Of a stretch of 38,615 nt of DNA, positions 1-4,047 are shown piece by piece (positions within the stretch are counted from its first letter, which is position 1; each line of letters opens with the position of its first letter). Below the pieces are notes generated by a model, which made no database searches, had not been told where the DNA came from, and was given only the letters and a program-made list of their open reading frames with translations. The DNA is from Bacteroidia bacterium (GTDB lineage: Bacteria; Bacteroidota; Bacteroidia; UKL13-3), in the NCBI GenBank assembly GCA_025454875.1, contig JALONP010000008.1:1-38615 (forward strand), in the 5' to 3' direction. The position numbers and the translations under genes were made by a program.

Positions 1-86
1 TGGCTTGGCATCAATACATGGGTTGTAGTTTTCGCAATCAGGATTGCGTGGGTCTTGGCATTCGTCTTTGCAACTGTTTAAGGTTA
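1..86. repeat. 86-bp direct repeat, copy A
   Basis: Positions 1-86 match 1051-1136 base for base. The repeat spans codons from just before the lipid-bearing Cys to the window edge, so the true repeat may continue outside the window. Identity stops abruptly within the signal-peptide coding region. The 1,050-bp spacing suggests a tandem duplication or gene conversion. Confidence 0.95.
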
Positions 87-147
87 GCAAAACAGCGCTA
101 CTGCCTAGTAAAAGTAAGAATAGGTATTTGTGTCTAAGTATTTTCAT
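1..147 (-). CDS. lipoprotein, N-terminal part only (paralogue of 370-1164)
   Basis: The window edge cuts this gene, so only the first 49 codons are visible. It begins with an ATG at 145-147. Residues 1-25 form a lipoprotein signal peptide (charged start, then a Leu-rich core) ending in LTLNSC, with the lipid-bearing Cys at 26. The mature start CKDECQDPRNPDCENYNPC is Cys-rich and identical to that of the downstream-numbered lipoprotein at 370-1164. The DNA of the two genes is identical over 86 bp. The signal peptide here is 11 residues longer than in the other copy. It is the last visible gene of a minus-strand group transcribed from about 1913. Function is unknown; it is probably anchored in the outer or inner membrane facing the periplasm or surface. 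The call as a lipoprotein is firm; the rest of the protein is not seen. Confidence 0.8.
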   Translation of the reverse strand, partial: MKILRHKYLFLLLLGSSAVLLTLNSCKDECQDPRNPDCENYNPCIDAKP

Positions 148-169
148 CTTGAATTTTAATATAATCCAT

Positions 170-367
170 CTAATTGAATCGGTTGCGCGTGGTATACCAT
201 TCCGAATTTTTAGGTTCAAATGGATTGGTTTCTATTTGTGTAGGGCGTTCGCAGGGTTCAGTCCCATTATGAGGTGTGTTTAATGTATCGTTTTCTTCGG
301 TGGTTTGAGATTGTGCAGTTACAGCTACTAAACAATAAAGAGTCAGTAATAATAAATATCTTTTCAT
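170..367 (-). CDS. small secreted protein, unknown
   Basis: This gene encodes 65 residues starting with MKRYLLLLTLYCLVAVTAQS, a clear Sec signal peptide with likely cleavage after AQS or nearby. The mature part is only about 45 residues, polar, rich in Thr, Asn, Glu and Pro, with a single Cys. It lies between the two lipoprotein copies on the same strand, 2 bp after the stop of 370-1164 and 22 bp before the start of the partial copy. This fits an operon. I do not recognise a family. If the whole 1-kb unit is duplicated, a second copy of this gene may exist just outside the window. It could be a secreted partner of the lipoprotein, but that is inference. Confidence 0.65.
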   Translation of the reverse strand: MKRYLLLLTLYCLVAVTAQSQTTEENDTLNTPHNGTEPCERPTQIETNPFEPKNSEWYTTRNRFN

Positions 368-369
368 GG

Positions 370-1164
370 TTAATTGATTTTAATTCCAGTGAATACCCTA
401 TTTTTTCTATTGAAAATTCCATTTACAAATGTTACATATTCTTGTCTAATCGTATACTTGTCACCCTGTTTAAAAATGCCACGAACAATTTTCCCATCAC
501 AGTCTTGTCCTCCTCGTTGAAACCAAATATTATTGAAGTTTACAATTTTAGTTGAAAACCATTCATTAACAGTGTCTTTGCACCCCCTTGGCACCCCGTA
601 CACTTTTAAAATATCTTCTTGATCTGCCGCATCATAACTATGCCCCAATACAATGGTATACATGCTATCGGGTTTGTCGTCATCGCTGCCATAATAAGTG
701 CCTTCCCAACTCAGGGGTTCATTAAACCGTACAAAATAAAATGAGCGAATCACCGTATCAATACCATCATCGGTGGGGAAGCAGCGGGTATTGGGTTTGC
801 GTTTTACAATGAGCCGAATATTAAAATTGGTTCCCCTCAAATTATCCGGAAATACCACATTTACCTGCTTGCCATACCTTGGCTCTGGCTCGGTACCAAT
901 TTGCCAAATAAAACTATCAGCATCTGCTTGTATTGCTTCAAAATAAATGCTACTTCCATAACAGGAATCAGTATTTATTAAAAAATCAGCTAATCGTGGC
1001 TCAATAATATCCAAATACGTAGCCTCTTTAATGGTAAAAGCGGCACTGGTTGGCTTGGCATCAATACATGGGTTGTAGTTTTCGCAATCAGGATTGCGTG
1101 GGTCTTGGCATTCGTCTTTGCAACTGTTTAAGGTTAAGAGCAGAAAAAGGTATTTGTGCAACAT
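370..1164 (-). CDS. Cys-rich lipoprotein with PKD-like region
   Basis: The 264-residue protein starts MLHKYLFLLLTLNSCKDE, a very short lipoprotein signal peptide with the modified Cys at 15. The mature N-terminus has six Cys within about 30 residues (CKDEC, DC, PC and others). A middle segment around residues 85-120 (FIWQIGTEPEPRYGK, then VVFPDNLRG and FNIRLIVKR) looks like a PKD/Ig-like beta sandwich, as in many Bacteroidota surface lipoproteins. The C-terminal third is beta-rich, with no enzymatic motif that I recognise. It starts 5 bp after the stop of the surface protein 1170-1913 and is probably co-transcribed with it. A near-identical N-terminus recurs at 1-147. The role may be adhesion or cell-surface binding, but no function is shown. 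Confidence 0.78.
   Translation of the reverse strand: MLHKYLFLLLTLNSCKDECQDPRNPDCENYNPCIDAKPTSAAFTIKEATYLDIIEPRLADFLINTDSCYGSSIYFEAIQADADSFIWQIGTEPEPRYGKQVNVVFPDNLRGTNFNIRLIVKRKPNTRCFPTDDGIDTVIRSFYFVRFNEPLSWEGTYYGSDDDKPDSMYTIVLGHSYDAADQEDILKVYGVPRGCKDTVNEWFSTKIVNFNNIWFQRGGQDCDGKIVRGIFKQGDKYTIRQEYVTFVNGIFNRKNRVFTGIKIN
1051..1136. repeat. 86-bp direct repeat, copy B
   Basis: This is the second copy of positions 1-86, with no mismatch. It encodes the lipobox and mature N-terminus of the lipoprotein at 370-1164. Beyond 1136 the two copies diverge: this copy lacks about 33 bases of signal-peptide sequence that copy A has. Confidence 0.95.
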
Positions 1165-1169
1165 ACGCG

Positions 1170-1913
1170 TTAAGGTTTAAGTTGTTGTTTTAGCGCATCT
1201 ATTTCGGTTTGTTGTTGTAAAATGTACAAAGTAAGCTCCTCAATTTTTTGCAGCAATTGCAATTGCATTTCGCCAATATCAAGCTGGTTTTGGTTAGCCG
1301 CAAATTCGGCTTCGCTCGCAATGCCAGGCAAGTGTTTGTTGGTTTCAATATAAGCACGCAATTGGTTTAAAGGCATTAGAGAATACTCTTTGGCAAAAAC
1401 ATAATCGGGTATTGCCCCCGCAGTTACGGTTACCTTTCTTGCTTTTACATGTCCATCTACAACAGAAAATACAGGGGTAGCATTCGAGCCAGAAGTTAAT
1501 TGTAAATTACCATTTTGGTCGAGTATCATTCTTTTTTTCCAATCAACGATATCACCTTGAGTCATGGGTTGATCAGGATCATTAAAACTGAATACTAGAG
1601 CTCCAGACCAAGCATGATAACTTACTTGGGCTGTGCTGCCTCCTTGTAAATAATACCGAGCTTGACCATTAACATCTGGATAAGCAGACCACATAATTGG
1701 ATTACTCGCATCCCTTCCTCCAACAAATAGTTTATTATTTGGGACACCGTACTGACCAGCATCATAAAAACGAACCCTGCTCCAGATTGAAGGTCTTATC
1801 GCTCCAACATCGGTTCCATGTGACTGAGCTTGTAATTCAGTAGTTAACAAAAAGAAAAGGCTATAGCTTAACGCAACCTTTTGAATTAATGAAATGATAG
1901 TAGTTGTTTTCAT
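1170..1913 (-). CDS. secreted surface protein with Bacteroidota coiled-coil C-terminus
   Basis: The 247-residue protein has a signal peptide (about residues 1-30, ending LQAQS). Its middle region is Gly/Asn/Trp-rich and beta-rich. The C-terminus carries the run DYVFAKEYSLMPLNQLRAYI, then NKHLPGIASEAEF, then IGEMQLQLLQKIEELTLYIL followed by a short coiled coil. This C-terminal arrangement is very common in secreted Bacteroidota proteins and resembles tail-fibre-type or chaperone-assisted trimer ends. The function of the family is poorly defined. It is probably the first gene of a minus-strand secreted-protein group that continues past position 1. The XRE regulator starts divergently 104 bp away. 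The family-level call is fairly sure; the biological role is unknown. Confidence 0.75.
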   Translation of the reverse strand: MKTTTIISLIQKVALSYSLFFLLTTELQAQSHGTDVGAIRPSIWSRVRFYDAGQYGVPNNKLFVGGRDASNPIMWSAYPDVNGQARYYLQGGSTAQVSYHAWSGALVFSFNDPDQPMTQGDIVDWKKRMILDQNGNLQLTSGSNATPVFSVVDGHVKARKVTVTAGAIPDYVFAKEYSLMPLNQLRAYIETNKHLPGIASEAEFAANQNQLDIGEMQLQLLQKIEELTLYILQQQTEIDALKQQLKP

Positions 1914-2017: not shown

Positions 2018-2260
2018 ATGTTGCTTGCAAGACGTATTAAATCCATTCGCCTGTTTTTAGGCATTACCCAAAACCAAATGGCAATCAAATTGGATATTGA
2101 ACAATCAACCTACTGCGGTTACGAACGCGAAGCGGGTGACTTGAAGTTTAAGACCATTGTTAAAATTGCCCAAGCTTTGGGTTGCAGTATTCCTTTTTTA
2201 ACAGATATAAACTCAAGCGAAGTAGATGAAGCTAAATGGAGGGAAAGGTTTAGTAAATAG
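2018..2260 (+). CDS. XRE/Cro-C1 family HTH regulator
   Basis: This is an 80-residue protein that is essentially one helix-turn-helix domain. The HTH_3 pattern is visible at about residues 6-60: RIKSIRLFLGITQNQMA (first helices), then IEQSTYCGYEREAGDLKFKT (recognition helix and turn), then IVKIAQALGCSIPFL. About 20 residues follow with no partner domain. Free-standing XRE proteins of this size act as dimeric DNA-binding repressors. It lies divergent to the surface-protein group at 1-1913 with a short inverted repeat between them, so local control is plausible. A perfect hairpin follows the stop codon. No toxin gene is adjacent, so an antitoxin role is not supported. Confidence 0.85.
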   Translation: MLLARRIKSIRLFLGITQNQMAIKLDIEQSTYCGYEREAGDLKFKTIVKIAQALGCSIPFLTDINSSEVDEAKWRERFSK

Positions 2261-2325: not shown

Positions 2326-3375
2326 TTAATGTTGTACCACCAACTTGGTTATTCCTTGTGTATTTCCATCAAGAACATAAACTTGATACAAGCCATTAAC
2401 CAATGTGCTGGTTTCTAAAACCAACTTGTTTTGTTGAATGGTATAGTTCACTTGGTACTGTCTTCCGGCCATATCAAATACTGCAACCGTAGCTTGTTTT
2501 CCAAAATCTGGTAATTGACTTAACGTTGTAAAGGTATTGCTTGGGTTAGGGCTTGCCTTCATATTTACCGTGTTTTGAACGGTTGGTATACTTGCTAAAA
2601 TACCATTGGTTTGATACGAGAACGATACCACACGTCCACTGTCATTTAATTCGGCACTTGCCAAATGGTATTTAGCACCGTTACCAAACCACCTGTATTG
2701 AACAGTACGTTGGTTTCCAGCATCAAACGGCAAAGGGGTCCACGTTCCGATAAATGGCACCTTGCCTTCTACGGTAATCTCGGCATCTGATGTGTTTTTC
2801 ACCCGTAAAGTTATATATGAATCGGTAGGTGTTGTTAAAGTGCCCCAACCATCAACTACTGATACTGATGTTACGTTCACGGTAATTCGCAAAGAGTCAA
2901 ATGGCAAATCAAGTCCAAATTCTGCGGGAGTGGTTACAATTTTTAATTCAGTAGAATCACGTTCAGTATCACCGTAGCCAAACGGAAACCGCATGAGCGA
3001 TAAGGATACTGGAGGACCATCAATAAATCCATCTGTTGGTTGCAGTGTGCTAATGCCATTGCTATCGATATAATAAAACTCAGGGAAATCGTCTTGCACC
3101 ACAGCTAAGTTAGCCTCTTCGGGTGCCCCAACAACTTCGCTTGGTTGAACAAATACTGCTGAATCGCTGTAATTTGAACCTACAGTTGCAAAATTCCAAG
3201 TAACGTTGGCACCACTTGCACCTACAGTAAAGTTAGTAGGCAAGGTGGTATCCGTAGCGTAATACAATACATCACCAATAGATCCAAAATCAGATTCATC
3301 AAGAGTTATCTGGGCTTTACTTGCCAAACCTAATAGGCAGGCAAATGCAAATGTAATTGTGTGTTTCATTTTCAT
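2326..3375 (-). CDS. T9SS type A sorting-domain secreted protein
   Basis: The 349-residue protein starts with a signal peptide (MKMKHTITFAFACLLGLASK, cleavage near AQ). The body (about 25-265) is beta-rich and Thr/Ser/Asp-rich, with no catalytic motif that I recognise. Residues from about 272 form a type A sorting domain: KASPNPSNTF, then VAVFDMAGRQ, then LVNGLYQVYVLDG and the terminal ITKLVVQH. In Bacteroidota this domain directs export across the outer membrane by the PorSS/type IX system, followed by removal of the domain and surface attachment or release. The gene stands alone between a terminator and the DedA gene. A second Met at codon 3 is an equally possible start. The export route is well supported; the cargo function is unknown. 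Confidence 0.88.
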   Translation of the reverse strand: MKMKHTITFAFACLLGLASKAQITLDESDFGSIGDVLYYATDTTLPTNFTVGASGANVTWNFATVGSNYSDSAVFVQPSEVVGAPEEANLAVVQDDFPEFYYIDSNGISTLQPTDGFIDGPPVSLSLMRFPFGYGDTERDSTELKIVTTPAEFGLDLPFDSLRITVNVTSVSVVDGWGTLTTPTDSYITLRVKNTSDAEITVEGKVPFIGTWTPLPFDAGNQRTVQYRWFGNGAKYHLASAELNDSGRVVSFSYQTNGILASIPTVQNTVNMKASPNPSNTFTTLSQLPDFGKQATVAVFDMAGRQYQVNYTIQQNKLVLETSTLVNGLYQVYVLDGNTQGITKLVVQH

Positions 3376-3405: not shown

Positions 3406-4047
3406 TTAACGTTTACCCAGCTTGGTTTTGACAAACTCAAACACGATAGGCAGTAATGAAATGCCAATAATTCCAAATACAACCAGTTCGAAATTGGCTT
3501 TTACCCAAGGTATATTCCCAAAACCGTATCCTACCAATGTAAGCAAGGTAACCCACAAAATAGCGCCTGCCACGCAATAGGTAATATAGCGTTTGTAAGT
3601 CATGCTGCCTACACCTGCTACAAAAGGAGCAAACGTGCGCACAATAGGCACAAAACGTGCAATAATAATGGTGCGTGGACCATTCTTTTCATAAAAAGCA
3701 TGCGTTTTATCGAGATAGTCTTTACGTATGGTAAAGATGCCAAATAACTTAGCGCCTTCTCCTTTTTTGGCTAAATACCTTCCTATAAAATAATTGGTAT
3801 TGTCGCCAATGAGTGCGGCAACAATTAGCAATACAATGATAAGACCCACATTTAAGTTATTTGCGGGGTTGGCAGCCAAGGCGCCTGCAGCAAATAATAA
3901 AGAGTCGCCCGGTAAAAAAGGGGTAACAACCAATCCTGTTTCACAAAACACAATTAAAAATAGGAGCAGGTATACCAAGGTTCCGTAGTTGGCAATAAAT
4001 GTTTCGAGGTGGCGGTCAATGTGCAGGATAAAATCAATTAATTCCAT
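3406..4047 (-). CDS. DedA family membrane protein
   Basis: The 213-residue inner-membrane protein matches the DedA/SNARE-associated family. Visible motifs are the acidic-residue segment FCETGLVVTPFLPGDSLLFA (about 35-54), GDNTNYFIGRYL (about 80-92) and ARFVPIVRTFAPFVAGVG (about 128-145). Several hydrophobic segments span the membrane. DedA proteins are linked to lipid-carrier (undecaprenyl phosphate) or phospholipid flipping and to membrane-potential homeostasis. Conserved acidic and Arg residues of the family (E37-like, R129/R135-like) are present. It lies 30 bp upstream of the T9SS gene on the same strand and diverges from the small lipoprotein gene at 4089. The exact substrate is not predictable. 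Confidence 0.9.
   Translation of the reverse strand: MELIDFILHIDRHLETFIANYGTLVYLLLFLIVFCETGLVVTPFLPGDSLLFAAGALAANPANNLNVGLIIVLLIVAALIGDNTNYFIGRYLAKKGEGAKLFGIFTIRKDYLDKTHAFYEKNGPRTIIIARFVPIVRTFAPFVAGVGSMTYKRYITYCVAGAILWVTLLTLVGYGFGNIPWVKANFELVVFGIIGISLLPIVFEFVKTKLGKR

Follow-up and report, generated by a model that had tools for sequence, protein, structure and literature searches.

Tandem arrays of paralogous lipoproteins with similar signal peptides are found in Staphylococcus (the lpl genes) and in Borrelia, which belong to different phyla from the organism considered here. For Bacteroidota, excerpts of a study of surface-exposed lipoproteins (PMC5080379) describe a lipoprotein export signal of the form K-(D/E)2 in which position matters: the best motif has K at +3, and K at +2 occurs in 13%. 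Variable surface proteins of Porphyromonas gingivalis exchange domains and alleles, according to the parts of PMC5266723 used here, between strains of this pathogen.

The window, by which we mean the whole stretch of 38,615 nucleotides analysed here (C5:1-38615), comes from a genome of 2.98 Mb in 37 contigs (G000). We give a probability of roughly 0.6 to the following reading: a repeat at the edge of the window is part of a patchily distributed surface-protein island of 8.5 kb, in which the front ends of the lipoprotein genes have been homogenised and their bodies kept as binding variants. Front, or export end, denotes here the signal peptide, the lipobox and the Cys-rich linker; the body is the rest of the lipoprotein.

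The repeat at the end of the contig

Position 1 of the window is the end of contig C5. The earlier note had described positions 1-86 and 1051-1136 as identical; the identity is exact over these 86 bp and is a truncated view of a longer repeat. Another contig begins with 85 bases (C14:1-85) that are identical to the reverse complement of window positions 1-85, and in a comparison across every one of the 74 contig ends the left end of C5 overlapped the left end of C14 alone. Overlaps between other contig ends were mostly of 96-99 bp, which suggests an assembly k near 99. Both 300-base ends (L064, L099) of contig C4 (2846 bases) read alike in both orientations and are most likely masked sequence. 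Once C5 and C14 are joined, the exact repeat shared by lipoprotein copies A and B measures 100 bp. In copy A it occupies positions 1037-1136 (minus strand) and covers the end of the signal peptide, the lipobox Cys and the Cys-rich linker; in copy B, 86 bp lie within the window (1-86, minus strand) and the remaining 14 bp on C14. The assembly was broken here because a repeat of 100 bp just exceeds overlaps of about 99 bases.

The reading frame of copy B is preserved across the join, and when the contig is extended leftward, the homology runs on into C14 over the whole gene. In the congener G001, a single contig carries DedA, a T9SS-type gene of 388 aa and ispE side by side, and 2 bp separate ispE from the T9SS-type gene. 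In G000, DedA (window 3406-4047) and the flanking 349-aa gene (2326-3375, minus strand), which lies outside the island and whose G001 counterpart is the one ending 2 bp from ispE, are found at the end of C5, and ispE at C14:6315-7163. Since both outer flanks adjoin in this sister species, where the site is empty, the join is confirmed. The repeat is real and does not result from a misjoin. The earlier note held that its duplication would fall if homology stopped at position 1 or if the assembly were misjoined there; the continuation on C14, the unique join and the synteny with G001 point the other way on both counts. A chance match was ruled out as the source of the repeat by the exact 86-bp identity and by a column-shuffle test, in which the longest identical A-B run of 100 nt compares with a mean of 24.5 and a maximum of 52 in 2000 shuffles.

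The island and its gene pair among relatives

The island lies between the 349-aa gene and ispE, measures about 8.5 kb and contains four intact paralogous lipoprotein genes (A-D), one intact gene for a 902-aa T9SS cargo protein and three broken copies of that gene. Read from the window into C14, it begins at its edge with a hairpin (2272-2304), of which two more copies mark other unit borders on C14. There follow a divergent gene for an XRE-type regulator (2018-2260, plus strand), in which HTH_3 scores 32.8 bits against a cut-off of 23, and, upstream of the lipoproteins, a gene for a tail-fibre-like secreted protein (1170-1913, minus strand). No Pfam family, Peptidase_S74 included, matched the latter; the gene in the corresponding position of G015 carries Peptidase_S74 at 54.6 bits. 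Next come lipoprotein A (370-1164, minus strand; complete, 264 aa), with a signal peptide shortened by an in-frame deletion of 24 nt, an ORF of 65 aa (170-367, minus strand) and lipoprotein B. The N-terminal part of B is at 1-147 (minus strand; start codon 145-147), with the signal MKILRHKYLFLLLLGSSAVLLTLNS followed by Cys, and its remainder at C14:86-766. The first unit closes with the intact cargo gene (C14:769-3477) and a hairpin. The second unit comprises an XRE gene (C14:3536-3811), lipoprotein C (C14:3927-4745), a 77-aa stub (C14:4748-4981), lipoprotein D (C14:4968-5804) and a 90-aa ORF (C14:5807-6079) that fuses the first and last codons of the cargo gene and is again followed by a hairpin.

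The 65-aa ORF, which the earlier note called a secreted gene, is no gene by itself but the broken N-terminus of the 902-aa cargo gene: it ends at an extra TAG (170-172) where its 77-aa sister stub reads TGG. The search that the note proposed for further copies of it yielded the 77-aa stub on C14 and a 72-aa stub on contig C34, and the suspicion that the unit repeats beyond the window is borne out by the second unit on C14. The XRE-plus-promoter stretches of the two units are 95% identical over 372 nt, and the second unit, read by eye, lacks the tail-fibre gene save for its last bases. The basic module consists of the divergent XRE regulator, the tail-fibre-like secreted protein, a lipoprotein and a T9SS cargo of about 900 aa. 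The sequence shows this module twice in tandem, the second time with no tail-fibre gene and with hardly anything left of the cargo gene, and each unit repeats the lipoprotein and the first 65-77 cargo codons once more. The resulting layout is A, stub, B, intact cargo, followed by C, stub, D, broken cargo. None of the ORFs listed for the island was recognized by eye as an integrase or transposase, and base composition is uninformative about a foreign origin (GC 0.375 in the island, 0.391 and 0.401 in its flanks).

The 902-aa partner is a T9SS type A cargo protein, with a C-terminal Por_Secre_tail at 53.5 bits (cut-off 27). The domain exceeds the cut-off in the cargo of six of seven relatives; in that of G001 it scores 24 bits and stays below. 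Neither the lipoprotein nor the cargo body had a match above chance in Pfam, NCBIfam, PADLOC or PHROGs, nor did the lipoprotein among solved structures. AlphaFold predictions from 4 and 2 sequences were both poor and unusable (mean pLDDT 36 and 29), so that no fold backs a binding role.

The distribution of both genes was followed in 64 genomes of the family, with profile E-value limits of 1e-5 for the lipoprotein and 1e-8 for the cargo body, the sorting domain being left out. The lipoprotein is present in 24 of the 64 genomes and the cargo in 20, all of which belong to these 24 (Fisher 5e-13, phylogeny ignored); no cargo was detected in the other four. By coordinates, 19 of the 20 genomes have the cargo gene directly downstream of a lipoprotein gene and in the same orientation, the exception being G082, where the two are on different contigs. 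Lone lipoproteins without adjacent cargo occur on contig C44 of G026 and in G038. A wider sample gave the lipoprotein in 18 of 58 genomes, with two other families of the class among them. Over eight pairs, the distances of adjacent lipoproteins and cargo proteins correlate (r 0.87; 139 of 40320 permutations), a correlation that leans mostly on two close pairs. The stub on C34 matches the second-type cargo of G015 (63%), for the island stubs the best match is the first type, and copy F, the lipoprotein on C34 preceding that stub, most resembles the lipoprotein beside the second-type cargo of G015. As the C34 stub and F thus both match the second type, the type of the cargo and that of the lipoprotein correspond. 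The lipoprotein and the T9SS cargo are an undescribed gene pair.

In G015, G022, G006, G018, G035, G001 and G020, the lipoprotein is preceded by a tail-fibre-like gene, assigned by position in G015 and G001 and in G015 also by its Peptidase_S74 domain. We found no literature joining T9SS with the chaperone of endosialidase or with tail fibres. In G022, an independent expansion of four lipoproteins and two cargo genes stands in a single run behind the tail-fibre-like gene (L045:5019-14736), and lipoproteins are also multiplied in G018 and G035, among others. In G006 and G018 the cargo gene is followed by a further gene (L047:9082-9705, L048:4815-5462), about 210 aa in length, whose product by eye resembles a small outer-membrane protein and may be one more component of the module. 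The module that G001 itself carries lies between RNase Y and a gene of 800 aa, a place where G000 has only a 188-aa gene. In these two species of the same genus, the module is thus found at different sites.

Lipoprotein copies, front ends and bodies

The duplicated lipoprotein of the earlier note turns out to have six copies in the genome, A-D in the island and E and F on C34. Each of the six is a complete ORF that begins with a start codon of its own; no truncated silent lipoprotein copies, of the kind that would mark antigenic variation by gene conversion from silent cassettes, were found among them. On C34 an older pair is arranged as lipoprotein F, 72-aa stub, lipoprotein E. This diverged locus (L016:8745-10661) matches the island in its fronts and not in its bodies. 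All six copies read LNS-C, and an alignment of 14 rows shows no variation at the lipobox Cys, as in bacterial lipoproteins. Seven Cys, that of the lipobox included, are invariant in the same alignment, as expected of an exported protein held by disulphides.

Copy A has 14 residues before the Cys and copy B 25 (start ATG at 147), just as the earlier note had counted. These do not represent two export strategies. Signals start with MLHKYLF in the first copies of a pair and with MKILRHKYLF or MKRQKHKYLF in the second (MKILRHKYLF in the second copies of the island), and copy A has in addition lost eight codons of its hydrophobic stretch through the 24-nt deletion. Signal lengths in 24 family members were taken from the first Cys after residue 8, which is not the lipobox Cys in the C14 fragment of copy B and in four others; in the remaining members the signals measure between 14 and 25 residues. 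Because G006 also has a signal of 14 residues, the short signal of copy A is within the family range.

Overall dS among A-D is 0.45-0.74 and dN 0.11-0.15, so the duplication is old and the copies are constrained; dN/dS among the island copies is about 0.16-0.27, and all four lipoproteins are intact. Consequently, the recent duplication proposed in the note does not hold for the genes as wholes, and it is parts of them, above all the front end, that look recently common.

Recombination between copies, which the note had also put forward, is signalled by the 100-nt run and by contrasts between front and body. A weaker test, on runs of silent codons, gave P 0.008 for A-B, 0.010 for C-D (at the 3' end), 0.049 for A-E, 0.057 for B-E and at least 0.098 for the other 11 of the 15 pairs, P thus being at least 0.05 in 12 of the 15. 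The body of E is 44-47% alike to those of A-D, and its front 89-97%. At silent sites, D and E differ at 6 of 25 positions in the front and at 106 of 142 in the rest (P 1e-6), and copies 1 and 2 of G022 at 4 of 24 and 118 of 141 (P 2e-10). This front/rest test covered 22 hand-picked pairs of 210, with P values uncorrected, and gave P > 0.05 in 12 of the 22; in three of the other ten (F with G015_2, G022_3 with G022_4 and G035_2 with G035_3) it was the front that differed more. Silent sites of A and B show no front/body contrast (P 0.62), because the remaining signal codons of copy A differ.

In a comparison of 24 proteins (276 pairs; the automatic front border of F, at residue 30, came too early), similarity is higher in the front than in the body for 24 of the 27 pairs within genomes, 15 of which come from one genome, and also for 209 of the 249 cross-genome pairs. 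The median margin of front over body is 0.21 within genomes and 0.11 across them (P 6e-5, the pairs not being independent). All ten cross-genome pairs with a body identity of at least 50% have a front less alike than the body. Copy 2 of G006 has a body 70-75% alike to A-D and a front closest to the other copy of its own genome (74%). In C8_MAG_00008 (L060:9937-10937), a body of the G000 type lies under a front of its own genome's type, and a further copy, whose front is of that kind too, follows at the contig end. As a pattern, then, the sequences show fronts alike within a genome, divergent bodies and related bodies under other fronts in other genera. The likeness of the fronts could be due to gene conversion, crossover or cassette exchange.

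Explanations and comparison with known systems

In the explanation that we prefer for this tandem module, with the lipoprotein and the cargo start repeated within each unit, the 5' ends of paralogs would be kept alike in one genome by gene conversion or crossover as the bodies diverge. The Cys-rich linker may act as a surface-export signal. The lipoprotein is most likely an outer-membrane partner of the T9SS cargo in several variants, presumably its anchor or receptor, and several bodies would have been retained as binding variants. A bolder proposal, which we regard as tentative and rather unlikely, is a cassette type of surface diversification in which a mobile lipoprotein-cargo pair has a genome-specific export cassette grafted onto interchangeable bodies, each fitting a T9SS cargo, so that recombination at the front end would swap surface specificity.

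Much in the island speaks of decay: three of the four cargo copies and one of the two tail-fibre copies are broken, copy A lacks eight signal codons and the 65-aa ORF carries a nonsense codon. All this is consistent with neutral birth-and-death of a duplicated surface operon, through duplication, decay and occasional crossovers at the most similar stretch, with no selected diversity. The lipoproteins themselves tell against it, since the four of the island and the two on C34 are intact, dN/dS in the island is well below 1 and their multiplication recurs in G022, G018 and G035; we therefore think neutral turnover doubtful, albeit a serious competitor. An effector-immunity array would likewise account for a near-obligate gene pair in which only the small partner is expanded and the export end is conserved over diverse bodies: the lipoproteins would confer immunity to the cargo, itself an antibacterial effector, and orphan immunity genes would build up as effector copies decay. 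Yet Pfam, NCBIfam, PADLOC and PHROGs gave no toxin domain in the cargo, as a polymorphic toxin-immunity system would have, the lipoprotein gene lies upstream of the cargo gene and not behind it, and the cargo retains its T9SS sorting domain, which makes this reading improbable.

We consider an assembly artefact, with the partial copy arising from a misjoin or a longer tandem array collapsed here, very improbable. The window does end within the repeat, the k of about 99 deduced from contig overlaps is close to the 100 bp of the repeat, and the assembly graph would loop from body A through the stub to front B, allowing at least one copy of this unit; but a join that is unique among 74 ends, keeps the frame and has outer flanks adjacent in G001 renders a misjoin unlikely. 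In the living genome, the stretch that runs from body A across the stub into front B may nevertheless occur more than once, and the assembly may understate its true number. Assemblies break at arrays of this kind, as shown by the window, which ends inside one, and by several relatives whose copies sit at contig ends.

Under the preferred reading of a surface-protein island with homogenised fronts and variant bodies, the locus offers a simple, testable case of surface diversification, with a constant front and a changing body, in little-studied Bacteroidota. The lipoprotein and its T9SS cargo are seldom apart and matched no curated family, which suggests that some T9SS cargo proteins have dedicated lipoprotein partners. 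In the lpl and Borrelia arrays the lipoproteins are likewise tandem paralogs, whereas here each lipoprotein pair goes with a T9SS cargo gene. That gene ends in Por_Secre_tail, as do T9SS type A cargo proteins (PF18962 / TIGR04183), but its body, some 800 aa long, had no match in the family libraries searched, and the gene comes linked to a lipoprotein gene. Like the surface-exposed Bacteroidota lipoproteins in the excerpts of PMC5080379, the present ones combine a lipobox with acidic residues after the Cys (CKDE here, NPKEE in G006). CKDE resembles the K-(D/E)2 export signal, and the window copies, candidates for surface exposure, have K one place early, at +2 and not at +3. Finally, in Porphyromonas gingivalis, as far as the parts of PMC5266723 used here go, surface proteins of Bacteroidota are also diversified by recombination, there between strains and here in a tandem lipoprotein array within one genome.
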